From: Zygnema cylindricum
Taxonomy: Eukaryota > Streptophyta > Zygnematophyceae > Zygnematales > Zygnemataceae
Direction of reading: 5' to 3'
Assembly: GCA_037447655.1 (NCBI GenBank)
Contig: JBBHKE010002797.1
Location: 1-64,000, forward strand
Length of the DNA: 64,000 nt
Under the pieces are notes generated by a model. The model was given only the letters and a program-made list of their open reading frames with translations, was not told the DNA's origin and did no database searches. Numbering within the stretch: position 1 is the stretch's first letter; each line of letters opens with the position of its first letter. This document shows positions 5,285 to 61,450 of the stretch, piece after piece. A program made the position numbers and the translations under genes.

Positions 5285-5297
5285 CTCCCCTTATTTT

Positions 5298-8200
5298 CTA
5301 GTCAATCTTTAATTTCAGACCACACTTCTCCCTGCAAAAAATTAGCTTAGGGGAAGGCACAGGTTTGGTCATCATATCTGCTACCATCTCACTATCTGGT
5401 CTGTACTCTAAACTGATTATTTTGTTTTCTACTTTCTCTCTAACAAAACTGAGTCTGATGTCCATGTGTTTGGCTTTAAAATGGTGTTTAGGATTGGCAG
5501 AGATAGCGATTGCTGCCTGATTATCACAAAATATTTTCTGCACACCACTCTTAAGGTGACCAAGCTCACCAAGCAAAGACTTGACCCACATCAATTCTTT
5601 TATAGCAGAGCAAGAGGCCATATACTCAGCCTCCATGGTGGACTGAGCAATAACCTTTTGCTGTTTGCTACTCCAACAGCAAGCCCCATCACCCACATAT
5701 AATACATATCCAGAAGTACATCTCCTCATCGGAGCATCACCATAACTGGCATCACTCCAAGTAGTGATGTCAGTATTCTCCCCACCCAAATGCAACCATA
5801 GATCTCTAGTTCCTACCAAGTATCTAAGGACTCTCTTAGCTGCCTCCCAATCCTTCTTAGTGGGAGCATTTAGACTTCTACTCAGCACTCCTACAGCTGC
5901 AGCTAAATCCGGCCGGGTACAATTCATAAAATAGATTAGACTTCCCACTACTTGCCTGTAAGGAATAGTCTGCATGAACTTCTGTTCATCATGAGATAAT
6001 TCCTCGTCTAAGACTATGACTCCTTCTTCCTCACTCCCCTCACTTCCCTTCTTCAACTCCATTGGAGTTGTACAACTATTAGCTTTATCCATTTGAAATT
6101 TTTCAAGCATGTTCCCTATTGCTTCTTTTTGAGTCAATCTTATAATTTTCCTTTTTCGGTCTCTCTCTACTTGAATTCCCAAAATATATCTTGCTTCTCC
6201 CATATCCTTCATTTCAAATCTCCCCTTAAGATCGGTTTTCAGTTTGTTAATTTTTTCCATTGATTTACTTAATACAAGCAAATCATCAACATAAATTGCA
6301 ATAAATATCAAACCTTCCTCATCTTCGAAAACATAGATTGAGTGATCTGAGCTGATCCGAATATATCCCAGACCGGTAAGAAACTCATCAAGCTTCTTAT
6401 TCCATTGTCGAGGTGCCTGTTTCAAACCATAAAGAGATTTAATCAGCCGGCATACCTTACTCTCCTCTCCTTCTTCCACAAACCCTTCGGGTTGTCGCAT
6501 GAAGATCTCCTCTTCCAATTCTCCATGCAAAAAGGCTGTTTTTATGTCCATCTGGTGCACTTCCATGTCTTCCGCCGCCGCTAAACTGAGAAGTATGCGG
6601 ACGGAGGGAAATCTGACCACCGGAGCAAAGGTTTCCTCGTAGTCAATTCCTTCCTTTTGTGTAAATCCCTTTGCCACTAATCTGGCCTTGTAGCGCTCGA
6701 TTGTGTTATCTGGGTTCAGTTTTAGTTTGAAAACCCACTTACAACCGATTGGTTTTCGGTTAGGTGGACAGTCCACCAGCTCCCAAGTATCGGCTGCCAT
6801 GATTGAAGCCATCTCCTCATTGATGGCTGTCTTCCATCGGTTTCTTTCTGGACAAGTCATCGCCTCTCCATAAGTTTGAGGTTCATCTTGATGAGATAGT
6901 TTAGTTACCTTGTTAATAACCTGTTTTTCTTGCAGTCTTTTGCTACTTCTCCTCCCCCCCTCAAAATCTGAGGCCGGAATAGATGGTTCTCGTGGATTCT
7001 TTCGAACAAACTCGGCTTCTCCCCTATCCCTTGATTCCGAATCAATTTCCACCACGTCTTCCGCTTCGAGTAGAGTTGTCACTGGAGTTTCCACAGCCGA
7101 GTCCTTTTCGGTCTGATTTGTTCCTGCAAGAATGTCATCTTCTCTAAAACCTGGATAGTTAGGAAGCTCAAAGTCATCGGAATTTTCTGACTCAAATCTG
7201 ATTTTTACTGACTTCGTATATTTGAAGGGATCTACAGACTTTCCTTCATCCATAACTACTAGATGCTTTACTAAGATTATATCTTCCCTTTTTAGATCAT
7301 AAACTCTATATCCTTTAACATCTTCATCATATCCTAATAAGTATCCTGGTTTTCCTTTAGGATCTAGCTTCCAATTGGACCGATCAGTATCTAGACTGAA
7401 CACTTGACTGCCGAAAACCTTTAAGTGAGATATGTCTGGTTTCCGGCCTGTCCATCTCTCATAAGGTGTTTGATCTTTTATAGCTGAAGTAAGAACTCTA
7501 TTCTTGAGGTAATTAGCACAGTTCATTGCTTCTGCCCAAAACCTTTTCCCTATCCTTTTATCTGACAACATACTTCTAGCACTATCACTTAGTGTTCTAT
7601 TTAACCTCTCAGCTACCCCATTCTGTTCAGGATTTTCTGGAACTGTCTTTTGGTGTTGAACCCCATCTTCCCTCAGAAAATCCTCAAACTGGTTAGAAGT
7701 ATACTCTCCACCATTGTCACTCCTTACTCTCTTGATTGGAGTTTCATGGAGTTTTTCGCTCCATGCTTTATATTGTCTAAAACAATTCTCAGCTTCGGAC
7801 TTGTTTTTCAAAAAATATACCCGGGAATACCGAGACCAATCATCAGTTATAGTCATCATAAATCTCTTCCCCCCCGGTGAGGGCACTTTAGCCGGTCCCC
7901 AAATATCTGTGTGTACTAGATCTAGAATTTTTTCTCCCTTATAGGTGGCTGACTTAGGAAAGGGTAATCTGTGTGCTTTACCTTGAGCACATCCACTACA
8001 ATCACTTATATCATCACTCTCACTGAACTGAATCCCTTCCACCACTCCCATCTTTTTCATCTCTCTTAACTTATCTAGATTCACATGCCCAAGCCTCTTA
8101 TGCCACATCATAATATCATGAACACCAGCATAATAAAGTTTCTTCTTTTCATTACTTAAGATCAGCCTAAACATCCCATGGCTACCTTTCTCAGCAATGA

Positions 8201-9656: not shown

Positions 9657-10678
9657 AAGTCCTCAGAGTGGACAGCTTCCAAGAAGCCTCTAGGATAATC
9701 CTGACCCCTTTGTGTTTAAGCAAAGATAACTGCCACCCTGGCAGACAAAAACGCTGACCAACTTCACCCCTGTGAAGACAAGACTCCCCTGAGTCGATAG
9801 CAAAAAGAATCTTTGAATTTGCTCCCCTGAGCAGTAAGTTATGGGGGGTCAAAGTTGACCTTTTGTACAGAAGCTCTCTGGGAGAGGGGGTCCTATCTTC
9901 TAGTTTTTCTAAGTCCTATCTCTCTCACAGACTCTATCTACTGATGTACGGAACCAATCAGAATTGAGTTACGTACGTAAAAGTACAGCCGCCGGTGTAC
10001 TTTATGTACGGACATTGTACGACATGGCCAAAATGTCGACACATGTCAAATCCGGATTCGGTGCCATGATCTCCGGAGATTCTACGATCCAACGGAATTT
10101 CGCCACGCGTCATCCGATGTGGCGATGGCCACAAACCGCCGAAATCTTCCTCCGTGATCTCGGCGCTAATCCCGGCCGTCCGATTAAATTCAGATTTAAT
10201 CGTGGCCGTAATAAATACATGCGCGGTATTTATTTCACTTCCGAAACAAATGCGCGGTATTGATTCGTAATCCGTACTATCATTCGTACCGGATCTATGC
10301 ATCCCGTAAATCGTAACAGTTAAATGAATTATCGTACGTATTCTAATTTATATAATTATCAAACTACATATCACGTAATACTACTGCTAGATCTAACGGC
10401 TAAGGCTACCGGCTATTTCCTGTCTGCCGGCCGGTAGGTACAAGGATCAAATCCTGCCGCCGGCACATTCCTTTTAAATAAATAAATAAACCCTAGTATA
10501 AAATTCCCGTAAACCTCAGGATAGCCAAGGTAGCCATGGCTCTAGCTTCCTCTCCAATTTCTCAGTGACTGCGACAAGTTTGAGATTTGGAGAGAGAAGT
10601 TAGAGGTAGACTGCCTCGGCTTCTTTCTATGTTTCTATTTAGACCTAGAAAATACTAATAAAACCATTAGTTTCTACA
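9637..10678 (-). repeat. 5' LTR of copia A1
   Basis: 1042 bp with the same ends as the left copy. Visible differences from it include ACGTACG versus CCGTACG near 9971, CAGCC versus CAACC near 9987, and AAATCC versus AAATTC in the tRNA-like module. The tRNA-like module is at about 10385-10475. The first seven codons of the gag frame (MEVSELQ) come from this LTR. Confidence 0.93.
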
Positions 10679-10730
10679 CGCACGCAACGCCGCGTTCGCA
10701 CGAAACTAACTTTTCAAAAACAACAGTTAG

Positions 10731-24568: not shown

Positions 24569-25610
24569 TGTAACTCTGAGACCTCCATAAGTCCTCAGAG
24601 TGGACAGCTTCCAAGAAGCCTCTAGGATAATCCTGACCCCTTTGTGTTTAAGCAAAAATAACTGCCACCCTGGCAGACAAAAACGCTGACCAACTTCACC
24701 CCTGTGAAGACAAGACTCCCCTGAGTCGATAGCAAAAAAAATCTTTGAATTTGCTCCCCTGAGCAGTAAGTTATGGGGGGTCAAAGTTGACCTTTTGTAC
24801 AGAAGCTCTCTGGGAGAGGGGGTCCTATCTTCTAATTTTTCTAAGTCCTATCTCTCTCACAGACTCTATCTACTGATGTACGGAACCAATCAGAATTGAG
24901 TTCCGTACGTAAAAGTACAGCCGTCGGTGTACTTTATGTACGGACATTGTACGACATGCCCTTAATGTCGACACATGTCAAATCCGGATTCAGTGCCATG
25001 ATCTCCGGAGATTCTACGATCCAACGGAATTTCGCCACGCGTCATCTGATGTGGCGATGGCCACAAACCGCCGAAATCTTCCTCCGTGATCTCGGCGCTA
25101 ATCCCGGCCGTCCGATTAAATTCAGATTTAATCGTGGCCGTAATAAATACATGCGCGGTATTTATTTCACTTCCGAAACAAATGCGCGGTATTGATTCGT
25201 AATCCGTACTGTCATTCGTACCGGATCTATGCATCCCGTAAATCGTAACAGTTAAATGAATTATCGTACGTATTGTAATTTATATAATTATCAAACTATA
25301 TATCACGTAATACTACTGCTAGATCTAACGGCTAAGGCTACCGGCTATTTCCTGTCTGCCGGCCGGTAGGTACAAGGATCAAATCCTGCCGCCGGCACAT
25401 TCCTTTTAAATAAATAAATAAACCCTAGTATAAAATTCCCGTAAACCTCAGGATAGCCAAGGTAGCCATGGCTCTAGCTTCCTCTCCAATTTCTCAGTGA
25501 CTGCGACAAGTTTGAGATTTGGAGAGAGAAGTTAGAGGTAGACTGCCTCGGCTTCTTTCTATATTTCTATTTAGACCTAGAAAATACTAATAAAACCATT
25601 AGTTTCTACA
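24569..25610 (-). repeat. 3' LTR of copia A2
   Basis: TGTAACTC...TTTCTACA, 1042 bp. Differs from its partner at few sites (for example GTCGGTG versus GCCGGTG near 24923, CATCTGATG versus CATCCGATG near 25044). Carries the tRNA-like module at 25318-25406. Confidence 0.93.
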
Positions 25611-25627
25611 CTCCCCTTATTTTCTAG

Positions 25628-28600
25628 TCAATCTTTAATTTCAGACCACACTTCTCCCTGCAAAAAAATTAGCTTAGGGGAAGGCACAGGTTTGGTCATC
25701 ATATCTGCTACCATCTCACTATCTGGTCTGTACTCTAAACTGATTATTTTGTTTTCTACTTTCTCTCTAACAAAACTGAGTCTGATGTCCATGTGTTTGG
25801 CTTTAAAATGGTGTTTAGGATTGGCAGAGATAGCGATTGCTGCCTGATTATCACAAAATATTTTCTGCACACCACTCTTAAGGTGACCAAGCTCACCAAG
25901 CAAAGACTTGACCCACATCAATTCTTTTACAGCAGAGCAAGAGGCCATATACTCAGCCTCCATGGTGGACTGAGCAATAACCTTTTGCTGTTTGCTACTC
26001 CAACAGCAAGCCCCATCACCCACATATAATACATATCCAGAAGTACATCTCCTCATCGGAGCATCACCATAACTGGCATCACTCCAAGTAGTGATGTCAG
26101 TATTCTCCCCACCCAAATGCAACCATAGATCTCTAGTTCCTACCAAGTATCTAAGGACTCTCTTAGCTGCCTCCCAATCCTTCTTAGTGGGAGCATTTAG
26201 ACTTCTACTCAGCACTCCTACAGCTGCAGCTAAATCCGGCCGGGTACAATTCATAAAATAGATTAGACTTCCCACTACTTGCCTGTAAGGAATAGTCTGC
26301 ATGAACTTCTGTTCATCATGAGATAATTCCTCGTCTAAGACTATGACTCCTTCTTCCTCACTCCCCTCACTTCCCTTCTTCAACTCCATTGGAGTTGTAC
26401 AACTATTAGCTTTATCCATTTGAAATTTTTCAAGCATGTTCCCTATTGCTTCTTTTTGAGTCAATCTTATAATTTTCCTTTTTCGGTCTCTCTCTACTTG
26501 AATTCCCAAAATATATCTTGCTTCTCCCATATCCTTCATTTCAAATCTCCCCTTAAGATCGGTTTTCAGTTTGTTAATTTTTTCCATTGATTTACTTAAT
26601 ACAAGCAAATCATCAACATAAATTGCAATAAATATCAAACCTTCCTCATCTTCGAAAACATAGATTGAGTGATCTGAGCTGATCTGAATATATCCCAGAC
26701 CGGTAAGAAACTCATCAAGCTTCTTATTCCATTGTCGAGGTGCCTGTTTCAAACCATAAAGAGATTTAATCAGCCGGCATACCTTACTCTCCTCTCCTTC
26801 TTCCACAAACCCTTCGGGTTGTCGCATGAAGATCTCCTCTTCCAATTCTCCATGCAAAAAGGCTGTTTTTATGTCCATCTGGTGCACTTCCATGTCTTCC
26901 GCCGCCGCTAAACTGAGAAGTATGCGGACGGAGGGAAATCTGACCACCGGAGCAAAGGTTTCCTCGTAGTCAATTCCTTCCTTTTGTGTAAATCCTTTTG
27001 CCACTAATCTGGCCTTGTAGCGCTCGATTGTGTTATCTGGGTTCAGTTTTAGTTTGAAAACCCACTTACAACCGATTGGTTTTCGGTTAGGTGGACAGTC
27101 CACCAGCTCCCAAGTATCGGCTGCCATGATTGAAGCCATCTCCTCATTGATGGCTGTCTTCCACCGGTTTCTTTCTGGACAAGTCATCGCCTCTCCATAA
27201 GTTTGAGGTTCATCTTGATGAGATAGTTTAGTTACCTTGTTATTAACTTGTTTTTCTTGCAGTCTTTTGCTACTTCTCCTCCCCCCCTCAAAATCTGAGG
27301 CCGGAATAGATGGTTCTCGTGGATTCTTTCGAACAAACTCGACTTCTCCCCTATCCCTTGATTCCGAATCAATTTCCACCACGTCTTCCGCTTCGAGTAG
27401 AGTTGTCACTGGAGTTTCCACAGCCGGGTCCTTTTCGGTCTGATTTGTACCTGCAAGAATGTCATCTTCTCTAAAACCTGGATAGTTAGGAAGCTCAAAG
27501 TCATCGGAATTTTCTGACTCAAATCTGATTTTTACTGACTTCGTATATTTGAAGGGATCTACAGACTTTCCTTCATCCATAACTACTAGATGCTTTACTA
27601 AGATTATATCTTCCCTTTTTAGATCATAAACTCTATATCCTTTAACATCTTCATCATATCCTAATAAGTATCCTGGTTTTCCTTTAGGATCTAGCTTCCA
27701 ATTTGACCGATCAGTATCTAGACTGAACACTTGACTGCCGAAAACCTTTAAGTGAGATATGTCTGGTTTCCGGCCTGTCCATCTCTCATAAGGTGTTTGA
27801 TCTTTTATAGCTGAAGTAAGAACTCTATTCTTGAGGTAATTAGCACAGTTCATTGCTTCTGCCCAAAACCTTTTCCCTATCCTTTTATCCGACAACATAC
27901 TTCTAGCACTATCACTTAGTGTTCTATTTAACCTCTCGGCTACCCCATTCTGTTCAGGATTTTCTGGAACTGTCTTTTGGTGTTGAACCCCATCTTCCCT
28001 CAGAAAATCCTCAAACTGGTTAGAAGTATACTCTCCACCATTGTCACTCCTTACTCTCTTGATTGGAGTTTCATGGAGTTTTTCGCTCCATGCTTTATAT
28101 TGTCTAAAACAATCCTCAGCTTCGGACTTGTTTTTCAAAAAATATACCCGGGAATACCGAGACCAATCATCAGTTATAGTCATCATAAATCTCTTCCCCC
28201 CCGGTGAGGGCACTTTAGCCGGTCCCCAAATATCTGTGTGTACTAGATCTAGAATTTTTTCTCCCTTATAGGTGGCTGACTTAGGAAAGGGTAATCTGTG
28301 TGCTTTACCTTGAGCACATCCACTACAATCACTTATATCATCACTCTCACTGAACTGAATCCCTTCCACCACTCCCATCTTTTTCATCTCTCTTAACTTA
28401 TCTAGATTCACATGCCCAAGCCTCTTATGCCACATCATAATATCATGAACACCAGCATAATAAAGTTTCTTCTTTTCATTACTTAAGATCAGCCTAAACA
28501 TCCCATGGCTACCTTTCTCAGCAATGAAATAGACATCATCCTCAAAACTAGCAGTAAAGACTCCTTCCCTAGTGCTAGAAAAAAAACCCTTATCATCTAA

Positions 28601-29983
28601 TACTGATGTAGAGATAAGATTTTTGTTCAGCTCCGGAATAAACAATACATCGGAGAATGTTAATATGGATGTCTTTCCTTCTACTAACACTTTTATATCT
28701 ACCGATCCTACAAGAGTAGTGGTGACTATCCTCCCATCCCCGTACTCTATCTCTACGGTGGGAATCTTTCTTATCTTAGTGAACAGGTGTCTATCCTTAC
28801 ACATGTGCATGGAGGCACCTGAATCTACAATCCAGCCTGCTTCACCTTTCAATCCACCGTAAGCACATTTCTGCCTCCGTGGAATTTCGACCTCATTTTT
28901 CGCCTCCAACTCCTCATCCAAAAGGAGCTCATCGTCCTCGTCCTCGGATTCAGCCTCAAGTACCTGTGTGACAAGGGCCTTTTTCTTTCCTCTCGAGGTA
29001 CCACCGGTCTGCCCCTCCTTTAACCGAAGCTCGGTTAGCTTAGTGCACTCTGCCATATAGTGCCCCGGTTTCTTACAAAAATGACATAGTCCTTTGGGAG
29101 CCCTTGGTTCGAACTCATCGGCCGGTTTTTTCTGCTCCCTACCCCCATAGTTTCCGACCGGTTTTCGGGAATCCCTGTTCCTCCAATCAGTCGCTGTTGC
29201 CAAGGCTTGGCCACTCTTTCCTCCCCTTCGGATCTCAATTGTATTCTCTTGAACGAGAATCATTCCTACCACTGAGTTCCATATCCACCTTGAGTCAGGC
29301 AAGTCCTGCACACGGTAAACTATGTTCACGAACTCATCAGGTAACTTCATCAGTAAACAGTTAACCTTTTCTTTTTCACTCAAATCTTTTCCCGCACTCT
29401 GTAGCTCCATGAAGAGTGTAGCAAGCTCATTGCAAAAATCCAACATATTTCCCCCTTTGTATACATACTCCTTAACTTTCTGATCAGCCAACTGTTGTTG
29501 CTGAATCGTACCACTTCGGTACATCTCTATAAGAGCCATCCAAAGATCGGATGCCCTTTCTACCTGCAAATGAGGACATGCAAGTCCTTGAGTGAGATGG
29601 CGTAGGATGAAGTGCTTTGCCGCCATATTGTTGAAGTCCCAGGTTTCAGTATCATTCTCCTCGTTCCTCGGAATAGGTGACATGAATGCTAAACCAGTTG
29701 CTATTGGTGTGGTCGCCTCCTTCTCCTTTCCTTTGTCCACCACCTCTCCTTCCTTTGTTTCCTCCGTTGAAGGTGAATCCTCTTTCTTGGTGAATCTGCT
29801 TCCTCCAAACCCTGGAGGAATTCCAAGACTTGATGGACGCCCCAATCGTCCACTCACTATCCCCCAAAACCTTTTTTCGCATAGAGCTCCTATCATCATA
29901 CTTTCCCAGTATATGAAGCCAGTTCCATTAAAGATTGGTACCCTAGAGGGTGGGCCCATAACCTGTAACTCTGAGACCTCCAT
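25628..29983 (-). CDS. Copia A2 gag-pol polyprotein (1451 codons)
   Basis: Same domain order as the A1 polyprotein: capsid, CHFCKKPGHYMAEC knuckle, WIVDSGAS protease, integrase with all three catalytic acidic residues, YVDD reverse transcriptase, RNase H. Only scattered substitutions separate the two (for example KNLISTS preceded by PELN here and PELI in A1; YIQISSD here, YIRISSD in A1). One extra A in an A-run near 25662-25668 shifts the last dozen codons, so the C-terminus reads LIFLQGEVWSEIKD. This is beyond RNase H and probably harmless. The ATG at 29983 lies in the LTR, and the frame crosses the primer site. Confidence 0.95.
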   Translation of the reverse strand: MEVSELQVMGPPSRVPIFNGTGFIYWESMMIGALCEKRFWGIVSGRLGRPSSLGIPPGFGGSRFTKKEDSPSTEETKEGEVVDKGKEKEATTPIATGLAFMSPIPRNEENDTETWDFNNMAAKHFILRHLTQGLACPHLQVERASDLWMALIEMYRSGTIQQQQLADQKVKEYVYKGGNMLDFCNELATLFMELQSAGKDLSEKEKVNCLLMKLPDEFVNIVYRVQDLPDSRWIWNSVVGMILVQENTIEIRRGGKSGQALATATDWRNRDSRKPVGNYGGREQKKPADEFEPRAPKGLCHFCKKPGHYMAECTKLTELRLKEGQTGGTSRGKKKALVTQVLEAESEDEDDELLLDEELEAKNEVEIPRRQKCAYGGLKGEAGWIVDSGASMHMCKDRHLFTKIRKIPTVEIEYGDGRIVTTTLVGSVDIKVLVEGKTSILTFSDVLFIPELNKNLISTSVLDDKGFFSSTREGVFTASFEDDVYFIAEKGSHGMFRLILSNEKKKLYYAGVHDIMMWHKRLGHVNLDKLREMKKMGVVEGIQFSESDDISDCSGCAQGKAHRLPFPKSATYKGEKILDLVHTDIWGPAKVPSPGGKRFMMTITDDWSRYSRVYFLKNKSEAEDCFRQYKAWSEKLHETPIKRVRSDNGGEYTSNQFEDFLREDGVQHQKTVPENPEQNGVAERLNRTLSDSARSMLSDKRIGKRFWAEAMNCANYLKNRVLTSAIKDQTPYERWTGRKPDISHLKVFGSQVFSLDTDRSNWKLDPKGKPGYLLGYDEDVKGYRVYDLKREDIILVKHLVVMDEGKSVDPFKYTKSVKIRFESENSDDFELPNYPGFREDDILAGTNQTEKDPAVETPVTTLLEAEDVVEIDSESRDRGEVEFVRKNPREPSIPASDFEGGRRSSKRLQEKQVNNKVTKLSHQDEPQTYGEAMTCPERNRWKTAINEEMASIMAADTWELVDCPPNRKPIGCKWVFKLKLNPDNTIERYKARLVAKGFTQKEGIDYEETFAPVVRFPSVRILLSLAAAEDMEVHQMDIKTAFLHGELEEEIFMRQPEGFVEEGEESKVCRLIKSLYGLKQAPRQWNKKLDEFLTGLGYIQISSDHSIYVFEDEEGLIFIAIYVDDLLVLSKSMEKINKLKTDLKGRFEMKDMGEARYILGIQVERDRKRKIIRLTQKEAIGNMLEKFQMDKANSCTTPMELKKGSEGSEEEGVIVLDEELSHDEQKFMQTIPYRQVVGSLIYFMNCTRPDLAAAVGVLSRSLNAPTKKDWEAAKRVLRYLVGTRDLWLHLGGENTDITTWSDASYGDAPMRRCTSGYVLYVGDGACCWSSKQQKVIAQSTMEAEYMASCSAVKELMWVKSLLGELGHLKSGVQKIFCDNQAAIAISANPKHHFKAKHMDIRLSFVREKVENKIISLEYRPDSEMVADMMTKPVPSPKLIFLQGEVWSEIKD

Positions 29984-31005
29984 AAGTCCTCAGAGTGGAC
30001 AGCTTCCAAGAAGCCTCTAGGATAATCCTGACCCCTTTGTGTTTAAGCAAAAATAACTGCCACCCTGGCAGACAAAAACGCTGACCAACTTCACCCCTGT
30101 GAAGACAAGACTCCCCTGAGTCGATAGCAAAAAGAATCTTTGAATTTGCTCCCCTGAGCAGTAAGTTATGGGGGGTCAAAGTTGACCTTTTGTACAGAAG
30201 CTCTCTGGGAGAGGGGGTCCTATCTTCTAATTTTTCTAAGTCCTATCTCTCTCACAGACTCTATCTACTGATGTACGGAACCAATCAGAATTGAGTTCCG
30301 TACGTAAAAGTACAGCCGCCGGTGTACTTTATGTACGGACATTGTACGACATGCCCTTAATGTCGACACATGTCAAATCCGGATTCGGTGCCATGATCTC
30401 CGGAGATTCTACGATCCAACGGAATTTCGCCACGCGTCATCCGATGTGGCGATGGCCACAAACCGCCGAAATCTTCCTCCGTGATCTCGGCGCTAATCCC
30501 GGCCGTCCGATTAAATTCAGATTTAATCGTGGCCGTAATAAATACATGCGCGGTATTTATTTCACTTCCGAAACAAATGCGCGGTATTGATTCGTAATCC
30601 GTACTGTCATTCGTACCGGATCTATGCATCCCGTAAATCGTAACAGTTAAATGAATTATCGTACGTATTGTAATTTATATAATTATCAAACTATATATCA
30701 CGTAATACTACTGCTAGATCTAACGGCTAAGGCTACCGGCTATTTCCTGTCTGCCGGCCGGTAGGTACAAGGATCAAATCCTGCCGCCGGCACATTCCTT
30801 TTAAATAAATAAATAAACCCTAGTATAAAATTCCCGTAAACCTCAGGATAGCCAAGGTAGCCATGGCTCTAGCTTCCTCTCCAATTTCTCAGTGACTGCG
30901 ACAAGTTTGAGATTTGGAGAGAGAAGTTAGAGGTAGACTGCCTCGGCTTCTTTCTATATTTCTATTTAGACCTAGAAAATACTAATAAAACCATTAGTTT
31001 CTACA
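29964..31005 (-). repeat. 5' LTR of copia A2
   Basis: 1042 bp, same ends as the left copy. The primer site GGTGGGCCCATAACC is at 29949-29963. tRNA-like module at about 30713-30800. After its end, G LTR sequence (CCTTTGCTCTTTTTCTATAAAG) continues. Confidence 0.93.
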
Positions 31006-31053
31006 CCTTTGCTCTTTTTCTATAAAGACCTAGAAAATACTCAAATATCAACA
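31006..31053 (-). repeat. 3' LTR of copia G, last 48 bp
   Basis: CCTTTGCTCTTTTTCTATAAAG...ATATCAACA is identical in structure to the ends at 32350-32396 and 44905-44953, and is followed by CTCCCCTTATTTTC, the minus-strand purine tract of G. Confidence 0.85.
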
Positions 31054-39511: not shown

Positions 39512-39854
39512 GGCCAGTGTGGTAGGCGTTAGGGCGACCGAGGCTATGGTACAACTAAAGGCACTTTAGGCCCTAGGAGCCAGCGGGATTGCGGATGGTG
39601 TGACCGGCCTTCCCGTGAGGGGGGGTGTTGGATTGGCACGTGAATGCCGGTTCAATACGGGGTAGAATGTGATACGTCACACTTGAACCCGCCTAAAAGA
39701 AATAGGTACGGACCCGCCAGGCTCTACATCGAGCTGGTGGCACAGTGGTTAGTGCGCTGACAGCTCAAGTCAGAGGTCCCAGGTTCGAGCCCTGGCCGGC
39801 TCACTTTTCCCTAGTATGGGACATACCGAATCCCGGATTTCACGGAAATCAACA
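39512..39854 (+). mobile_element. 3' end of a small LTR element with a tRNA-bearing LTR
   Basis: A purine tract GTGAGGGGGGG (about 39615-39625) precedes a 229-bp LTR, TGTTGGATTGG...AAATCAACA (39626-39854). It interrupts copia A3, whose RT reading resumes at about 39855 (CTTTCTCATCTTCGAAAAC). The 5' LTR and most of the interior are lost in or beyond the gap. Such a short LTR suggests a TRIM-like or other miniature element, but the interior is not available. Confidence 0.65.
39731..39803 (+). tRNA. tRNA-like gene, complete cloverleaf, anticodon position CUC, inside an LTR
   Basis: Seventy-three nucleotides fold canonically: acceptor GAGCTGG/CCGGCTC (one G-U), D-arm GCAC/GTGC, anticodon arm CTGAC/GTCAG with a 7-nt loop AGCTCAA, variable AGGTC, T-arm CCAGG/CCTGG with loop TTCGAGC, discriminator A. 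The A box (TGGCACAGTGG) and B box (GGTTCGAGCCC) are intact, and TTTT follows at 39805-39808. Position 33, almost always U, is G. The anticodon at 34-36 would be CUC (Glu). It is either a Pol III unit captured by the LTR or a tRNA pseudogene that no longer decodes. Confidence 0.75.
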
Positions 39855-51935: not shown

Positions 51936-53940
51936 CAAGAGATCTAGTGGGGTCAGTAGATTTGAAAGTCTTAGTAAAGGGTAAGACTTCTATACTCACT
52001 TTCTGAGATGTACTCTACATTCCTCAGCTAAGTAAAAATCTTGTCTCTACGTCTGTGTTAGATGACAAAGAGTTTGATACCTTCACTAGAAAGGGGGTCT
52101 TTACAGCTAAGTATGGGGATGGAGTCTACTTCACGACATATAAAGGTAGCCAAGGAATTTGTGGGCTTAACGTGAGTAATGAATAGAATAATGCTTACTA
52201 TGTTGGTGTTCTAAAGTTGATGATTTGGCATAAGCGGTTGGGGCATGTGCATTTTGATAGGTTAAGGGAAATGAAAAAGCTTGGTGTAGTAGCTAGCATT
52301 CAGTTTGGAGATAGTGAAATGTTGGATGATTGTAGTGGTTGTGCTCAAGGTAAGGCTCACAGACTCCCTTTTCCCAAAGCTGCCACATATAAAGGTAAGA
52401 AAGTACTAGATTTGGTCCACGCAGATATCTAAGGACCTACAAAAGTACCTTCGGTTGGAGGAAAGAGGTTTATATTGACAATAAACAATGATTGGTCTAG
52501 ATACTCTAGAGTGTACTTCCTTAAAACAAAGTCTGAAACACCAACTTACTTTAAAGAATATAAAGTTCGGAGTGAGAAGTTGCATGGAACCCCCATTAAG
52601 AGAATAAGGAGTGATAATGGAGGAGAATATACCTCTAACCAGTTTGATAAATACTTGAGAGATGAGGGAGTTCAGCACCACAAAATTGGACCAAATAACC
52701 CATAAAAAAATGGGGTAGCTGAGAGGTTGAACCAAATATTAGGAGATAGTGTATGCAATATGTTGGCCGACAAGAAAATAGGAAAGAGATTTTGGGAAAA
52801 AGCCATCAACTGTGTTAACTACATTAAAAATAAAGTCCTATCCTCAGCCGTAAAAGGAATGACACCTTATGAGAGATGGGTTGGAAGGAAACCAGATGTC
52901 TCTCAACTTAAAGAATTCGGTATCAAGGTTTACAAGCTTGACACGGATAGGAAAAACTTGAAATTAGATGCTAAGGGAAAACCTGGATACATTGTAGGAT
53001 ATGATGAGATAATTAAGAGATATAGAGTCTATGACTTAGCAAAGTAAGATATCATTCTGGTCAAACACCTAGTTGTCATGGATGAAGGAAAGTCATTTGA
53101 CCCCTTCAAATATACCAAGAAGATAAGAATCAGATTTGAGTCCTAAAGTCAGGAGAACTCCGTCATTTCAAAAAGGGACATGAGTGAAACAGTGATTGCA
53201 TATTCAAGGGAGATCCAAGATACAAGAGATCCACCGGAAACCTCACATATTCCTTTGGACTTTGAGAAGACAGAATAGGAGGAACCTGAACCAGCTTCCA
53301 TGGATAGGGGAGCCGATGAGATAGTAAGGAGAAAACCAATACTTCCCTCTATCCAAGCTTCGGATTTTGAGGGAGGGAGAAGGAGCAGCAAAAGAATATA
53401 AGAGAAATAGGCCGCTCACAAGGTAGCTAAGCTATCTCACCCTGATGAGCCTCAGTCATACTCGGAGGTAGTAAACAATCCGAAGAATGACAGATGGATT
53501 AGAGCCATAAATGATGAGATGGCCTCCATCATGGAAGCAAATACTTGGGAACTAGAGGACTGTTCTCTGGATAGAAAACCGATTGGCTGTAAATGGGTGT
53601 TTGAGCAAATTCTGAACCCAGATAATACCATTGAAAGATACAAGGCCCGGTTGGTAGCGAAGGGGTTCACCCAAAAGTAGGGGATTGACTATGAGGAGAC
53701 TTTTGCTCCAGTTGTTTAATTCCCATCAGTAAGGGTTATCCTCAGTCTAGCGGCAGCAAAAGACATGGAAATACACCTGATGGATATTAAAACCGCCCTT
53801 TTCAATGGTGAGTTAGAGGAAGAAATTTTCATGCGACAACCAAAGGGGTTGGTGGTGGAAAGAGAAGAGAGCAAAGTCTACAAGCTTATAAAGTCCTAAT
53901 ATGGACTAAAGCAGGCTCCCCGCCAGTGGAATAAGAAACT
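51936..53940 (+). pseudogene. Copia H integrase and RT, first part (broken)
   Basis: Plus-strand pieces matching A1 at protein level: DLKVLVKGKTSILTF, integrase zinc domain IWHKRLGHVHFDRLREMKKLG...CSGCAQGK (52223-52355), core VHADI-stop-GPTKV, RSDNGGEYTSNQF (52608), NGVAERLNQ (52710), WVGRKPDVSQLKEFG, GYDEIIKRYRVYDL, linker GGRRSSKR, RT start RWIRAINDEMASIMEANTWEL and IGCKWVF (53500-53610), then QAPRQWNKK at 53920. The sequence then switches abruptly to gypsy J. Several stops. The RT active site and RNase H are not present. Confidence 0.85.
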
Positions 53941-53956
53941 ACAAAAGAGCACTCAA

Positions 53957-54634
53957 TTGGCCCCTTTCGCAGCAAAATTGGCTGCTATCCGCTTGGGATC
54001 AAATGCACGCACACCTCAACCTCTGACGGCGGCTCAAAAACTGCAGAAACAAAAACAAGAACTGCTACAAAGGTTGGCGGAGGTGGAGCACACCACAGTG
54101 GGTGGAGATGATGATGACCTAATGGGTTGGGATATAGAGCCTCCAAAGGCTCATCACGCTCGGACATTTCTGTCCGGAGCCTGGAACGTTGGAGTAGGGG
54201 ACAGTCGCAGACAACTACGCTCTACAACGTCCTCTCAGAGAAAGGACAAACAGCCGATGGAACAAAAGGACCACAGCCGCAACGCCACCGGTCCTTTATT
54301 ATTCACACACAGAGCAGTCCTTCTGAACAATGACATTAGGCTGGGCCTTAAACAGACTCATTCGCCTCCTCCGGCTCCATGGACACTTCCTCCCGGCTTC
54401 GAATGGTACAAGAAACCACAGCTAGAAAAGGATCCTTCAACCGCCGAAAAAGATCAAGAATGGTTCGACCGATACTTGGCTGAAAGACCACCGACAGACC
54501 CGCCAGTTACACCACTAACAGGAAACTTTGACGCAGAAAGTGAGGAAGCAGGGGGGGGGATACAGGTGAAATCGGAAGACGAGGACTCACCCATGTCATC
54601 GCCCAAAGCTCACCCTCCTTCCTCCAAACCCTAG
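53957..54634 (+). CDS. J gag-like C-terminal region (225 codons)
   Basis: Open frame rich in Pro, Glu, Asp and Lys with a coiled-coil-like stretch (QKLQKQKQELLQRLAEVE, about residues 28-45) and an acidic end (IQVKSEDEDSP). No zinc knuckle or known domain. It precedes the protease, so gag C-terminus is the natural reading. The 5' part is cut off at the H junction; the first Met is not necessarily a real start. The stop at 54632 may be a mutation. Confidence 0.5.
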   Translation: MAPFAAKLAAIRLGSNARTPQPLTAAQKLQKQKQELLQRLAEVEHTTVGGDDDDLMGWDIEPPKAHHARTFLSGAWNVGVGDSRRQLRSTTSSQRKDKQPMEQKDHSRNATGPLLFTHRAVLLNNDIRLGLKQTHSPPPAPWTLPPGFEWYKKPQLEKDPSTAEKDQEWFDRYLAERPPTDPPVTPLTGNFDAESEEAGGGIQVKSEDEDSPMSSPKAHPPSSKP

Positions 54635-54772
54635 CAGCCAGCTTAGTACCCCACTCGATGCCCTATCACAACTGAAGACCCTAAGACTGGAAGAGATTCA
54701 CACTAGGAGGGAAAGGGTCGCGTTGGCAGAACCACCAAAGACATCTTCATGTCGGCATAACCAAATACTTCT

Positions 54773-55250
54773 ATGACAGATAGAGATTTTAAGGCCCTGT
54801 CGGTGGCTCTTATTCTTAATAAGACCAGAAATTTTAAACTCAATGGATACGGTGAGTATCACGATGCAGTGGTGGATACTGGAGCACTCCCTAACCTCAT
54901 AACCTCAGCATTGCAACAAATGCCCGAGTTACTCCGGCCAAAAATCAGCCCTAGTGACATATGCCTGAGTCTGGTCAACAATGGTAGCCAACCAGTATAT
55001 GACATCATAAAAGCAATGGAAATCGTATGCGGATGACGCGAGACAACACGTACAAATTCAACTTCCCTTCCTTGTGGTGGAAGGTAAGCAATTTGAAATT
55101 TTGTTGGGTATGGCTACGTGGACAAGATTCAATATGAATTGAGCGTTTGGAAGGAACAATTTTCAATTTCAGACCCGGAGAATCCCGAGGGCACCAAAGT
55201 GGTGGTCCCCTTGAATTTATGGAACCGGGGAAGAACAACTGTCTGGTGTC
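54773..55250 (+). pseudogene. J aspartic protease (broken)
   Basis: YHDAVVDTGALPNLIT (about 54860-54905) carries the Asp-Thr-Gly active site of a retropepsin, followed by LCLSLVNNGS-like and, in another frame after a stop/frameshift at 55036, FEILLGMATWTRFN, the ILLG element that forms the second part of the fold. It would process the J polyprotein. Frame differs from the methyltransferase that follows. Confidence 0.7.
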
Positions 55251-55383
55251 TAGATGTTATCTTGTGTAGGCTGCATCCACCTCTTCGTAGTTGTTCGAAG
55301 GCTCTATCGATATCGCTGATTCCATCTAGCAATTCCCTATTTCTAAGCAGTGGGAAAGGAAGTATCAGAATAGATTAGTATAG

Positions 55384-56505
55384 ATGACCACACTTCGGCG
55401 AGAAGTGGACAGGAGCTTTGTCGCTATATTACCCGATACAGCAAAGGTTATCCGGTCAAAACTTTCAAAGGTTCCTAACAAAGGGAAGGATTTCAATCGA
55501 CAAGTGGTGTCACTAGAGATCCCGCCTTCAGGACTCAGAATTTTATCACTATTTTTTGACATTAGTTCCAACTTGGAAGCCGTTCTAATATCTGGATACC
55601 AAGTAGAAGCGTACTCGGCAGTCGAGATTGACTCGGACGCCCGTGCAGTCAATGAGTATCGACTGCAACAGCTGCACTAACTTTACCCACAGCAACTCTC
55701 GGTGTCTGCAATGTCTAACTCTCATAGCACTCTTCCCCAGAATGTGGACAACATCACGAATTCACATTTAGAGAAGCTTAGAAGGGTAGATTTGGTGGTT
55801 GCTGGATGGCTGTGCCAGGGGTATTCGTTAACAGGACAAGGAAGGGGACACTAGGATGTCTATAGAATAATATTTTTTCAGATGACACCACTAATAACAA
55901 AGTTAGAGGGACGCCAGGACACGCCTATGGGGTACGTCTTCGAAAATGTTCACCCCACAGATGATAAAAGGAAACAGGTGGTCAACAGTTAGAACCAAGT
56001 GACCAAGGTTGTGGGGACTCCCATAGTTTTTGATGCAGCAGAGATCACATCAAGAGCCCACAGAGTTCGAGCTTATTGAACCGACTTGGTCCCTCTTCCC
56101 ATCCTCCAACAGCTGTTGAAAACATAAGTTCCGGATCTCAGCATCACAGTTCAACAGATTCTCGGACCAAGGCGAATGGCCACCCCCGTGACCAAAGCCG
56201 ACCTAGCACCATTCTTCTGTTGCAATCATCTCGGAAAGTCACGGAGGGCACTACCAACCCTGGTATCATTTCCTAACAGCCATGCTTACCGAAAAGGCGC
56301 ACCAGGGATGATATTTAACAATAAAGCCGCTACGTGGACAGCACCAAGTATTGAGGAACGGGAGCAACCAATGGGATTTCGACAGGCAACCACAGCAGCC
56401 CCAAGGGTCTCACCTTCAAAAAGGTGCAGTTTAATGGGGCAAAGTATGGATTTGAATTTAATTTCCTGGGTGCTACAACATTCTCTATCATTCTCCAACC
56501 TCTAG
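55384..56505 (+). pseudogene. J DNMT3-like C5-cytosine DNA methyltransferase domain
   Basis: One frame, interrupted by five stops (55678, 55852, 55990, 56077, 56125), keeps the motif order of a C5 methyltransferase. Motif I LRILSLFFDISSNLEA (55534; AdoMet binding, altered from LFDGI). Motif II AVEIDSD (about 55615). Motif IV DLVVAGWLCQGYS with the catalytic Cys codon at 55813 (Pro-Cys is Leu-Cys here). Motif VI FENV (Glu at 55942). Motif VIII ITSRAHRVRAY (56044). A C-terminal EEREQPMGF and LMGQSMDLNLISWVL (56353, 56431) correspond to motifs IX-X. The SxAHRxR and ERxxGF pattern is closest to the DNMT3 group. In the family it transfers methyl groups to cytosine C5. It lies between protease and RT and shares the RT frame. 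The stop after AHRVRAY falls where Trp is expected. Confidence 0.85.
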
Positions 56506-56982
56506 TACCAAAAGTCACGCGATACATACCTTCAAGCTCCACATTTGTTGGCCATGCAAGCTACTCTACAACTTGAGGGGGGGAGAGAGGCAAAAAGGAA
56601 AAATTCACCAAATTACACCCTGGAGTTTCCTCAGTGGGGGGGAGCAGAGGCTCAAAACATAAAGTTGTCAGTAGCAGCGTTTTTGCAGCCGTGCAAGGGA
56701 CAAATCCACAGGTAGAGCATAAATTCGACATCTCCCTTTGGGGTCGACCACCAAAAGCATGGGCTGCACTGGAACCCGAAAAGATGGACTGGACACTAGG
56801 GGAACAGCTAAACCAATAGCAGAAGGCTCAGCTCTCCAATTTCTTAGAGGAGAACGGGCTGGTGTTCTCTTGGTCTGACACATATGTAGGGATCTATAAG
56901 GGGACCCCTTTTCGCATTGCCCTGACCGACGAGACGGCGACTGTTTAGAAAAAACCAGTACCCTCTTAGCTTAAAAGAGAAA
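56506..56982 (+). pseudogene. J tether between methyltransferase and RT (broken)
   Basis: No recognised domain until about 56840, where pieces resembling the stretch before a gypsy RT appear (LSNFLEENGLVFSWSD, then GTPFRIALTDETATV in the same frame). Stops at 56503, 56817 and 56946 and frame changes occur. Purine-rich GAGGGGGGGAGAGAG near 56575. Confidence 0.45.
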
Positions 56983-57744
56983 GTGTTCATCACTGCAAAG
57001 GTGGAGACTTTGGTGGACGCCGGGCTGGTGCAACAAAGTACAGGGCTACATGGGTTTGCCTCTCCAACAATGCTCTCGCCAAAGAAAGACTCATCCGAGA
57101 AAACGGTAGATTTTCGGATGTGTGGGGACTATCGGATGCTCAATGCGGCAACTGTCTCCGACCGTTATCTCATGCCCACCCTGGAAGAGATCTCTGACTC
57201 TCTGGCTGGGGCCACCATTTACTCCACGTTGGATATGAAGAATGGATTATATCAGATTGCAATAGAGCCAAAGCACCGCGAGAGGATAGCTTTTTGGGGA
57301 GGATCCAGGTTGTATGAGTGGTTTTTCATGCCATTAGGCCTCATAAAAGCACTTGCCAAATTCCAACGGGCTATGGAGGAGGCCCTCCAGAGAATTGATT
57401 CCGCACAGTGTTACATCGACGATGTGATCATTTTCTCCAAGACATTTGAAAAACACTTGGAGCATATACAGAACGTTCTTCGGGCTCTCCAATCGGCGGG
57501 CTTGAAGTGCCATCTGGGGAAAGGCATCTTTGGGGTGCACAAAATCATTTATCTGGGTTATGAGGTGACTCCTGGGATAGGGGGTCCCCACATGGTTAAG
57601 GTGGCAGCCCTTCACGCCCTTCCACCCCCGCAAGACACTTCGGCCCTTTGCACATTCCTAGGTCTGGCCAACTATTACCGAAGGTTTATTCCCGAATTCA
57701 GTAGCCACGGCCAACCATTGAATCAGTTATTGCGAAAAGACTAG
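56983..57744 (+). pseudogene. J Ty3/gypsy reverse transcriptase (253-codon open piece)
   Basis: All RT landmarks are present: LVDAGLVQQSTG, FRMCGDYRMLNAATV, LMPTLEEISDSLAGATIYSTLDMKNGLYQI (first catalytic Asp; quoted in parts), FFMPLGLIKALAKFQRAME, active-site YIDD (57412-57423), LGYEVTPGG-type stretch, and the connection FLGLANYYRRFIPEFS. Copies element RNA into DNA in the cytoplasmic particle. Ends with a TAG where Glu/Lys is likely, then RNase H continues. This is the best preserved part of J. Confidence 0.85.
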
Positions 57745-58240
57745 GAGTGGCAGTGGGAAGAAGAACAACAAACCGCTTTCCTGTTCCTGAAAGATTCCCT
57801 GAAGCAACATCTTGTGCTCCAGATGCCAGATCACCAACGACCTTTCCTCCTTTATACTAATTGGAGCAGGTTCGGATTGGGAGCAGTGTTGGCTCAATTA
57901 GACGATGCAAGGGCGAGTACGTAGTAGCATACGCAAGCCGGAGCAATAACAGGGCCGAGGAGAAATACAACAGTTATTACGGGGAATTACTCGCCGCAGT
58001 ATGGGCAATTGAGCATTTTAGGCCTTACCTCTATTGAGTACACTTCACCTTTATTACAGATCACCAGCCCCTAAAATGGATAATGGAGAACAGTAAGTTG
58101 ACCGACAAGCGGGCCAGATGGGTTCTCATCTTGGAGGAATACGATTTCAGCATCATCCACAGAGCAAGGGAGATTCATGGGAATGTAGACGGACTCATCA
58201 GGAATTCACACCCTTCCACCAAAGACTCTATCGAGGCTAT
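57745..58240 (+). pseudogene. J RNase H (one frameshift)
   Basis: [18 protein letters not shown] (57847; usual Asp of YTDAS replaced by Asn), a shift near 57910, then [38 protein letters not shown] (in parts; catalytic Glu in YGELLA), ITDHQPLKWIM (Asp at about 58060) and DFSIIHRAREIHGNVDGLIR. Removes RNA from the RNA-DNA hybrid. The tail HGNVDGLSR is typical before the integrase. Confidence 0.8.
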
Positions 58241-58439
58241 GAACGATGAAGACCCGGCGCTTAGCTTGGGACTTATCCGAGCTTCCTCTGCCTTTATTTG
58301 GCTGCCTCGTGCTGAAGGAGAACTGTCAACTTTTGCTGCAAATGTCGGGGGGCGGGCTCCCATTGGAGCCTACCGCAAGGATATTTGGAATGATATCGAT
58401 TCCCTTTAGTCCATCTAGAAAGGCTCCCCTCTTCCCCAC

Positions 58440-59235
58440 CTGACCGGAATTCACTTCTCTCGTGTTCAAACCCGAATGGCGGCGTATGAATGGGATCGAG
58501 GCATTCTTCTCCGGAAATAGGCTGATAGGACTAGGAAAGTTGTTCCTCCTCCGGCAGATCAAGAAACCCTCATTGTTTGTCTTCACCAGCAATGCGAGCA
58601 CTTCGGACAGAAACGGACCATCTCACTAGTCACAGGGTCGTACTGGTGGCATGGGTTGCGGGCCTAGGTCAACACTGTGTTGCAGACGTGCCCTTCGTGT
58701 GACTGAAAGAAAGGTGCCTTTGACAAAAAGGGTGGAACGGAACTTCACTCCCTCCCCATCCGGGGGATGTTTTACAAATGGTCACTAGATCTGTCGAGAC
58801 CACTTCCAACCAGACGGAGGGGAAATCGTTTTGTTCTAGTAATGATTGAACACTTCTCCAAATGGATAGAATTGGTGGTTTTGCCCTGAAAAGAGTCCAA
58901 AGCGATTGCGGACGCATTCTTGCAGATAGTACTGTCCCAATTTGGAGCACGGGCCGAAGTTTTGACGGATCAAGGGTCCGAGTTTGCCGAAGAATTTTCT
59001 AACCTTCTGGAGAAGTGCCTCATTGACCACCGGTTGACCAGCCGAGACCACCGCCAAGCCGACGGCTTGGCCGAGAGGTGCGTACAAACAGTGAAGCGAT
59101 CACTACGGAAATATGCAGTGGAAGAGGATTTGGTAGAATGGGACGAACGGGTGCCTTGGATTGCCATAGGATACAGGTTCAGCAGGCAGGCATCCCTCCA
59201 CTCCTATAGCCTTTACTTCATTCTCTTCGTCTGAC
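58440..59235 (+). pseudogene. J integrase (several stops)
   Basis: Zinc domain CLHQQCEHFGQKRT...CPSCD (58577-58704), core with D in SLDLSRPL (about 58788), D in VLTDQGSEF (58967) and E in ADGLAERCVQTVKRS (59072), then VPWIAIGYRFSRQASLHSY, the conserved end of the gypsy core. Stops at 58409, 58418, 58664, 58703, 58888 and 59234. Inserts the cDNA into the genome. No chromodomain follows; a PHD finger does. Confidence 0.82.
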
Positions 59236-59573
59236 ATCCCATCCTAGCTGGAGCTGCATCGGCTCAGGCGGTTGTGCTTCCACAGATGGCCAACCGGGGG
59301 ACTGTAGAGAAATTGATGCCTAAGCATGTTATTTCACCCAAATACCGGCTACGGGCAATTTACGTCGCTAACACAAAGATCGCTTTTATTCCTAACACCA
59401 ATGGCAATCATAACTCCTAAATCCATGCATTCGTGCTCGGGATTTCGTGTATCGTGACGGAAGCCAAGATATTTCGACATCTCGGTCGGATGGGTGATTT
59501 GAGCAGTGAGGTCTTTGGGGTTCTTACATTGGAAGGGAAAGATGGCTGCAAAATTAAAGAATAGCACATCAAT

Positions 59574-59807
59574 GTGGCCCTTTGCCATTTGCGAGGGCTA
59601 GAGGATAAACCCATTTTCCACCTCACTTACTTTGCAGACCCCCCCTCCTGTTCCTCTGCCTACAATGTGTCCTCCGTACCCGACCTCCTGTTGGTGTGTG
59701 AACACTGTCACCAGGGGTGGCATGACTGCTGCCTACCAGTGAATTGGGAGCCTCGCTCTCAACACTCAAATCTGTGGTTCTGTGGGGATTGCGAATTTGG
59801 AGGCTAA
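59574..59807 (+). pseudogene. J C-terminal PHD finger
   Basis: LLLVCEHCHQGWHDCCL and, after a spacer, WFCGDC give the last six ligands of a C4HC3 PHD zinc finger (C-x2-C-x4-H-x2-C, then C-x2-C) with the usual Trp before the final pair. The first ligand pair is partly lost: CSSAY has Tyr (TAC) where Cys (TGC) is likely. It is in the same frame as the integrase, about 110 codons downstream, and ends in a stop at 59805-59807. PHD fingers read histone H3 tails in known proteins. At an integrase C-terminus it may steer insertion, as chromodomains do in other gypsy elements. Confidence 0.75.
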
Positions 59808-61450
59808 TTTATCTCATCCTCTTAGTCAAACGAGACTAAAAGGGGGGGGAATCTCGGGGGGGTACAAGATACTTTTTCTTTTTCACTCAATTCCTCATGA
59901 TCTCCTATGCATTATTCGTTGGGGGGAAGGAACACAGAAGGGTATTGTCACAAATTCGGGGGAGCATCAACATTTGGGGTGGAGTGCAGGCTAGTTATGC
60001 ACACCTCCTCGGACCTCTTACCCAAACCTCACGGTTCCCAGTCAAGCTCGTGTGCATCTTCGGCACATTTGCACTCCCAGGAGTTTCGGGGCCTCATCCC
60101 ACCTTGTACGAACTCCAGCGTACGGAGAAGGAAAGGACAACCAGCCGGATCAAGTCTTTGTAATTTCACCTTGGAGCACTACGCACTTTAGTTCACCTTA
60201 AACGGAGGTCGAACGACGGAGTTAGTCCGGTGCAAAGGTGTCGGCTCCATTACATGGCATCCGTTCTATGTAGCTCTAGCAGAGGGGTACATTGTGGATT
60301 GGCATGCAATCTTTAGGATTGTCCCGTACCTCTTGCTATTAGCTGTCAGTAAGATTTTAGTTCAAGCCTAACGGACGGAGTTCAAGCCTAACAGACGGGC
60401 AGAGCATTTATGACGTAGGGTCAAAGTTAGGCGTTTCAAGTCAATTCAGAACTTTGTTGCCCACTAGTGTACAATAGGAGGACCTTTGGCTGCCAATCCA
60501 GCCGGAGCCAGTCGTGTAAATTTTTGCCTTGAGTGTACTACAGTTTGTTTTGTCTTATATCATTAGGATAACAACTGCTGGCCGTTGATATGCTATTGGC
60601 ATTGCTTTGAATTTGGCACCTGCAGTAGGACAAACTTTGGTTGTATAAAGCACTTGGGGCTGAAGAAGACAAGTCTCTTTTTTAGTACTCTCTCCTGAGA
60701 AAAACCCCAGAGAATTCAATTAATATTTTTATTGGAGAACTGTTGCATTGTGTCGTGGAATCTATTGCCATCATTGTTTTGGATTGTCTTTTGTGGAGAC
60801 CGTAGCTCGGGTGGTTAGTTGGCACTATCGTCTCTTTGGGCGGTTTGGACTTTCGCTCTTTGAAACTTAGAAGAGTCTAGTCGGATCTGTACGGCGGAAC
60901 TAACGGGTGAGGGAGACTGATACCTGTCTTCGGGGCCATTCGAAGAGTTCCTTTCTCTGAAGTTTGGTCATCTTTGTACTCCGGGGTAGGTGAGCTCGCT
61001 TCACCATCATTATTTATTTCCATCTTTATTTCCATTCTTTGGGGCAAGGTGATATTGTTTAATATGAAAATGCCGATATTTATTATTTCTATATTTCTGC
61101 GTGGGAGTTATTTGCACATTCTTGTGGTCCTCTTTGGTTTTTGTCCTGTTTTCTTGTGGGCTGGTCAGACGACTTGCATTTCCTTTCTATTCTTTGGAGA
61201 GTGGTCGGGGGTGTAGCATTTAGTGAGCTTCTGGTGGATAAGCACAATCTGGGGGGGTACAGGATACTTTTTATTTTTCACTCAATTCCTCATCATCACC
61301 TATGCATTATCTTTAGGGGGGGAAGGAACAGATAAGGGCATTGTCACAAATCCGAGGGAGCATCAGCATTTGAGAGAATGCAAGTTTTTTATGCACCTTC
61401 TCGGACCTCTTTCCCAAACCTCACTGTTCTCAGGCACGCTCAACAAGTAT
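59808..61450 (+). other. J 3' region with a pair of about 200-bp direct repeats
   Basis: After the PHD stop come G-rich tracts (AAAAGGGGGGGG, CGGGGGGG near 59830-59860) that could be the purine tract. A 200-bp block starting GGGGGGGTACAAGATAC (about 59855-60062) recurs at about 61249-61441. TATAAAG at 60643-60649 could be an LTR promoter. I could not fix LTR ends. Small open frames here look accidental. Confidence 0.5.

Follow-up and report, generated by a model that had tools for sequence, protein, structure and literature searches.

A DNMT3-type methyltransferase within Pol and a PHD finger downstream of the integrase in a large Ty3/gypsy family of Zygnema cylindricum

Transposons are normally silenced by host methylation, which makes elements that preserve a de novo DNA methyltransferase (DNMT) of their own a real puzzle. 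We analysed a stretch of 64,000 nucleotides of the alga Zygnema cylindricum (contig JBBHKE010002797.1, assembly GCA_037447655.1; hereafter the window), in which a reading of the sequence alone had placed, at 53941..59807, a Ty3/gypsy retroelement encoding a DNMT3-like cytosine methyltransferase. We hold it probable, at roughly 80%, that this element, dead and truncated at its 5' side, belongs to a large and long-lived Ty3/gypsy family in which Pol contains a DNMT3-type de novo methyltransferase, the integrase is followed by a PHD finger, and movement takes place by the mechanism proposed below. Gypsy elements of the DNMT-carrying kind have been known since 2018; what is added here is the PHD finger, the variation of motif IV, the integrase-type 4-bp duplications around split repeats, and the relatives in Closterium and in environmental samples. 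This very large family, in a single alga, has a writer as well as a chromatin reader, and some of its insertions combine 4-bp duplications with a repeat order beyond standard LTR replication.

The nature of the methyltransferase was evaluated on the window frame 55384-56505 (frame 1), searched with X in place of each stop. The frame passed the curated Pfam cut-off of PF00145 (E 3.3e-5, 23.9 bits vs 22) and matched DNMT3A in the PDB at 9.4e-7; all the 39 distinct PDB sequences matching at E up to 1 were DNMT3A/B/C or M.HhaI. As the sequence-only reading had claimed, the domain lies between protease and reverse transcriptase (RT) and its motifs were located in order, namely I at 55543, IV with its Cys codon at 55813, VI (FENV) at 55936, VIII (AHRVRAY) at 56056 and IX-X at 56359-56457. 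The five in-frame stops by which it had judged the copy dead were mapped to 55678, 55852, 55990, 56077 and 56125. The likeness to DNMT3 was borne out as well: the DNMT profile of the family found DNMT3A best, at 1.2e-20, with HaeIII as the next family at 6.4e-8, and the predicted fold of the DNMT of one relative is nearest to DNMT3A/B. In a structure alignment (VIA-align), CMT and DRM were not among the 50 entries shown, which carries no weight against either. Plant DRM methyltransferases have motifs VI-X placed before I-V, an arrangement that differs from the I, IV, VI, VIII, IX-X of the window domain. Host DNMT3 genes have ADD and PWWP domains beside the catalytic domain; in the open relative L040 no PWWP was matched at E up to 0.01 and the sole PHD is the one after the integrase, unlike the host layout. 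The sequence comparisons thus support a DNMT3-type enzyme.

The rest of the family was sought in the same assembly (352.8 Mb, 2689 contigs). The copy L040, on contig C1344, is a single open frame of 2395 codons in which DNMT, RT, RNase H, integrase zinc domain, integrase core and PHD (1.5e-9) are all above cut-off, while upstream of them a zinc knuckle (7.8e-4) and an aspartic protease (6e-4) fall just below the cut-offs when scanned alone. In L039, on C1374, a pol frame of 1520 codons holds DNMT, RT, RNase H and integrase, with a PHD under the threshold, and the frame preceding it a sub-threshold protease. The assignment to Ty3/gypsy is upheld by RVT_1, RT_RNaseH and rve, which were found in the window (rve below cut-off) and above cut-off (Pfam) in the open relatives. 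The L040 frame has rve and no tyrosine recombinase at E up to 0.01, and at the same level neither L039 nor L040 has a chromodomain, having instead a PHD, weak in L039. Since only part of the first-look candidates was scored, the following counts are lower bounds: at least 123 matches to PF00145, 123 of 123 over cut-off (123 of 782 candidates scored), at least 119 to the L040 DNMT (119 of 1873), at least 149 to its RT (147 of 3524) and at least 151 to its integrase-PHD tail (150 of 1905). The numbers of first-look candidates suggest a family of hundreds of copies or more.

To describe how the DNMT sits relative to the other domains, the 147 places of the RT search, with two second fragments omitted, were set against a list of 119 DNMT places plus 9 of the 123 PF00145 places, chosen for their nearness to RT places. 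A listed DNMT lies 0.4-3 kb upstream in 63 of the 147 RT places (at 1200-1800 bp in 57 of them), and in none of the 147 on the opposite strand within 3 kb. Among the 84 RT places for which no DNMT is listed, the upstream DNA of five was read, as relatives lacking the domain between protease and RT would have spoken against the sequence-only reading: four have the whole DNMT, frameshifted, and one (L074) has only its C-terminal end, so that none of the RT relatives read in this way is clearly without the domain. Moreover, the integrase-PHD tail follows on the same strand, 3.2-5.0 kb downstream, in 39 of 119 DNMT places, the two controls (wrong side, opposite strand) giving 0 each, and seen from the tails a listed DNMT is upstream in 48 of 150. 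The order protease-DNMT-RT is thus confirmed, at sequence level, as recurrent in the relatives of the same genome, where the domain is embedded in pol as had been claimed; the implied novelty of this embedding did not hold, as the DNMT of Klebsormidium had already been placed in the Pol ORF in 2018 (PMC5890265).

The PHD finger, at 59565-59804 in the window, had gone unmentioned in the sequence-only reading. Its C4HC3 ligands are complete in nine of nine loci compared in the genome (L040 and L054 being one place) and incomplete in the window copy. The two subfamilies, A, to which the window copy belongs, and B, share 48% identity in integrase and tail, and all eight ligand positions are kept in both. 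Outside the genome, 588 proteins match the integrase-PHD tail at 1e-10 or better (7996 candidates scored); among the 120 of them listed, 85 have PF00628 in a precomputed column and 57 the strict C4HC3 pattern, many of the matches being fragments. The tail relatives with PF00628 come, among others, from Klebsormidium nitens (P0106 with 45% identity to the tail, P0112 with 43%), from the liverwort Calypogeia fissa, from Gonium pectorale and, judging by its eukprot name, probably from Chromochloris; by these matches, the PHD-integrase lineage is widespread among green algae and extends to a liverwort. In Calypogeia fissa, the integrase-PHD gypsy proteins P0094, P0095 and P0111 are 49% identical to the tail of the family.

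The window copy has the following layout.

53941..54634, + strand: remnant of gag or of the gag-pol linker; blastn 82% to L039 from window 53942, open frame 53900-54634; no significant Pfam match
54761..55036, + strand: aspartic protease remnant; VVDTGALPN read by eye, in a frame that differs from that of the DNMT in this copy; no Pfam match of its own
55384..56505, + strand: DNMT3-type cytosine-5 methyltransferase domain; frame 1, five in-frame stops, catalytic Cys codon 55813; aligned with P0001 and copies of the same genome
56926..57744, + strand: reverse transcriptase; PF00078 2.4e-21
58038..58409, + strand: RNase H remnant; PF17917 2e-6
58890..59234, + strand: DDE integrase core remnant; PF00665 1.5e-4, below cut-off, and above it in the open relative L039
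59565..59807, + strand: C-terminal PHD finger; PF00628 2.4e-4, just under cut-off, with one of eight zinc ligands lost
59836..59849, + strand: polypurine-tract-like run directly 5' of repeat B, read from the sequence
59847..60041, + strand: inner copy of repeat B, from repeat comparison
60041..61246, + strand: right-hand copy of repeat A, 1.2 kb; identity of 82% with the left A of the related C1374 copy (L052)
61246..61445, + strand: outer copy of repeat B, the right end of the element; 84% to 59850-60049

At the place equivalent to the protease remnant, Asp_protease_2 is just under cut-off in the relatives (L039 2.1e-4, L040 6e-4). Neither limit of 53941..59807 stood as an end of the element. 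The left one is a truncation, at about 53937-53941, against a Copia fragment (RVT_2 at 53411-53680 and rve, both above cut-off) whose repeat match stops at 53940, and the left-hand repeat A went with it; the right end reaches about 61445, because the element continues after its coding part with the split repeats B-A-B. The window copy is 81% (DNMT) and 83% (RT) identical to L039 and is nested in the subfamily of L039 in the tree.

The repeats are best read in C1344, which runs A (931 bp) - coding - B (about 243 bp) - A - B; its two A copies are 100% identical and its two B copies 99.6%. The ends of this copy are TGTC and GACA, its inner B|A junction is the palindrome GACA-GC-TGTC, and its flanks repeat TTGG. 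The same order was found in C2234 (duplication TAGA) and C829 (duplication AAGG), and the junction GACAGCTGTC is present in all three of these copies, which lie on different contigs and have exact 4-bp duplications. The chance of three such exact matches among the four copies with complete repeats is about 2e-7, or 6e-7 with C544 counted. Among the right ends of six tail loci, four show B-A-B (C1344, C1848, C2086, and C1407 with A partly deleted), as does the window copy. A G-rich, polypurine-like run lies at most 2 bases before B, at the same position, in C1344, C2234 and C829, and no canonical tRNA primer site was seen by eye after repeat A. The tyrosine recombinase and the lack of target duplication that define DIRS elements do not describe this family, given the rve of L040 and the 4-bp duplications of three copies. 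The simplest reading of these repeats would be that a joined B|A junction is cut by the integrase.

Selection on the domain was estimated from the subfamily A copies without a stop in the DNMT, excluding L001, L002, L006, L036-L038 and L041 as duplicates or overlaps and retaining both L022 and L039, which are one and the same place. Among related open copies dN/dS was 0.11-0.49 for the DNMT and 0.03-0.30 for RT; between deeper groups that of the DNMT was 0.07-0.09 where dS (2.1-3.0) was computable, many pairs being saturated. The window copy compared with L039 gave 0.17 for the DNMT, 0.15 for RT, 0.18 for RNase H-integrase and 0.32 for the PHD. The DNMT is therefore under purifying selection, looser at the protein level than that on RT. 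Domain swapping between subfamilies was considered because of the identity between two groups in many copies, about 72-75% in the DNMT and 91-97% in RT; it was rejected, as dS is high in both domains and the low DNMT identity is accordingly read as faster evolution of the DNMT protein.

Motif IV varies within the family. Its proline is, as a rule, near-invariant. The window copy has LCQ; PCQ occurs in 33 of 37 rows of subfamily A and ECQ in five of five of subfamily B, some rows being overlapping loci. A tree of 70 rows (56 of 92 proteins, with 230 aligned residues or more, and 14 copies of the genome) has proline in 49, glutamate in 14 and 7 unassigned, and its starred branches force at least three changes between proline and glutamate. 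Judged from these alignments, the variation is both notable and recurrent.

A possible trace of methylation was sought in the DNMT-RT stretch of the window copy, at positions where three relatives agree. Transitions were found at 23 of 154 CG, 31 of 219 CHG, 48 of 625 CHH and 54 of 956 A/T sites, and transversions at 9, 17, 30 and 48 of them, respectively. The CG and CHG excess in this dead copy fits host methylation of the plant type and, as this is the decay expected of the host, nothing follows from it on the enzyme of the element.

According to the mechanism that we propose, the DNMT would be made within Pol and would therefore be present at the site of cDNA synthesis, where it could methylate that cDNA or else the new insertion site. 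The PHD finger may tether the integrase to a histone mark, in the way of the chromodomain of chromoviruses, which are Ty3/gypsy elements carrying that domain at the C-terminus. In an intermediate form of the cDNA, B and A would be joined, and the integrase would cut at this B|A junction, at the palindrome GACA-GC-TGTC. It is also conceivable, although we advance it tentatively and would sooner expect it to fail, that a whole gypsy group of the green lineage has linked a writer (DNMT3 in Pol) to a reader (PHD on the integrase) and integrates from circular cDNA with the joined junction by means of its DDE integrase, joining DIRS-like repeats to insertion of the retroviral type and marking its own DNA while choosing chromatin.

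Several observations weigh against the reading of the element as a carrier of an active methyltransferase with this mode of integration. CG and CHG decay fastest in the window copy, so that the enzyme of the element is not needed to explain them; ECQ in place of PCQ means that the chemistry of one subfamily may be altered; and the gypsy DNMT of Klebsormidium gave no detectable methylation in a yeast assay, a result its authors call inconclusive (PMC5890265). As for the repeats, two of the six tail loci (C1234, C1864) have B without a following A; in C1848, C2086 and C1407 the matching left A was not found where expected, with only a divergent partial one at C1848; C1374 has complete repeats but 3.7 kb extra and no target duplication; C544 (L077-L078) is A-coding-B only, again with no target duplication, a form that a one-repeat circle or internal recombination would be expected to yield; and C2577 and C750 have no A or B repeats where these were looked for. 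Moreover, standard gypsy reverse transcription would give B-A at both ends, of which the integrated form is a permutation.

Among the other explanations, we think it unlikely that the DNMT, or at any rate that of the ECQ subfamily, is kept for a task that is non-catalytic or directed at RNA, for example as a clamp on cDNA or RNA beside RT or in RNA methylation. The 14 glutamate rows of motif IV, with their repeated changes on the tree, would suit such a role, as would the RNA methylation proposed for LINE-borne DNMTs and the Klebsormidium gypsy enzyme without detectable activity in yeast (PMC5890265); on the other hand, all ECQ rows keep the catalytic Cys and Gln, though the rows were chosen by that string, the motif VI Glu is present in the five subfamily B copies listed, and the window's own subfamily is mostly PCQ. 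A somewhat smaller chance is given to an ordinary LTR element that replicates normally, its A-B-A-B pattern arising from recombination or from the assembly of tandem copies. The pattern is in fact missing in C544, C2577 and C750 and at the right ends of C1234 and C1864, and C1374 has its extra 3.7 kb; yet the full order, the exact duplications and the same junction in three copies on different contigs are hard to reconcile with it, B-A-B recurs in C1407, C1848, C2086 and the window, and KnitGypsy-Dnmt3 has been given the same repeat order (PMC5890265). That a retrocopy or other methyltransferase-carrying insertion fell by chance into an ordinary gypsy element at one locus is extremely improbable, even if the window copy is broken and lies among nested Copia elements: the domain order is repeated across the genome and in P0001 from another source, and chance or nested insertion is rejected because related copies hold the DNMT in the same place.

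Outside the genome, a protein search with the DNMT profile gave 90 matches at 1e-5 (7995 candidates scored), of which seven are named Closterium NIES-53 or NIES-54 and none Klebsormidium nitens; 75 match PF00145 and three RVT_1 (Pfam), most being fragments. The relatives comprise Closterium proteins and many others, mostly environmental. P0001 (1458 aa, ENA) has a sub-threshold protease followed by DNMT and RT above cut-off, in the order of the window family, and P0060, P0061 and P0071 carry RT by precomputed domains. In P0033 the DNMT stands directly before the integrase zinc-binding domain, and P0049 is similar by eye, pointing to a second place for the DNMT in Pol. In P0002, a protein model of Closterium NIES-53, a Copia RT precedes gag zinc knuckles, and there follow a protease under the threshold and a stretch that aligns as part of a DNMT; retro-DNMTs are hence annotated as proteins in this alga. 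A viral origin was set aside: six IMG/VR loci share DNMT stretches only, with no RT, integrase or PHD match at 1e-3.

The closest known system is KnitGypsy-Dnmt3 of Klebsormidium nitens (de Mendoza et al. 2018), which shares with the window family the Ty3/gypsy enzymes, a Dnmt3-type domain in the Pol ORF, the DIRS-like repeat order and purifying selection; the word PHD does not occur in the main text describing it, whereas the window family has the finger, and, set beside that description, the window family differs by its ECQ subfamily, its host and its apparently very many copies, those of KnitGypsy-Dnmt3 being fewer than those of Symbiodinium (PMC5890265). SymbioDIRS-Dnmt3 of Symbiodinium, for which CG methylation was detected in yeast, also has Dnmt3 in Pol with RT and split repeats, but with a DIRS RT and a tyrosine recombinase in place of the gypsy RT, DDE integrase and target duplications found here (PMC5890265). 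The DNA transposon Ginger1-9_HM, which is not a retroelement and has in addition a Ulp1 protease domain, likewise carries a gypsy-like integrase/transposase with a PHD in its C-terminal part (PMC2836005). Titles and abstract openings of the literature, with subscription papers mostly outside the search, gave no DNMT-PHD gypsy element, nor this family in Zygnematophyceae. Chromoviruses share a chromatin-reader module after the integrase, and the window family differs from them by a PHD finger in the place of the chromodomain, by the DNMT in Pol and by the split repeats. With this family one can ask whether cDNA, the insertion site or neither is the target of such enzymes, and whether some integrases use a circle junction.

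The assembly of Zygnema cf. cylindricum SAG 698-1a contains 29.8% Copia and 5.9% Gypsy (PMC9915684). In the window, two elements of 6.4 kb at 4243-10679 and 24569-31006 are 99.3% identical, with terminal repeats of about 1043 bp that are about 99% identical, and the near-identity of copies and repeats points to recent activity. They are probably of Copia type, because they match at 73% the fragment 51943-53940, which has RVT_2. In the element at 24569-31006, an open frame on the - strand runs over 1453 codons. Finally, a tRNA-Glu gene (CTC) at 39731-39804 lies about 40 bp upstream of a further copy of the 6.4-kb family, which starts at 39846.

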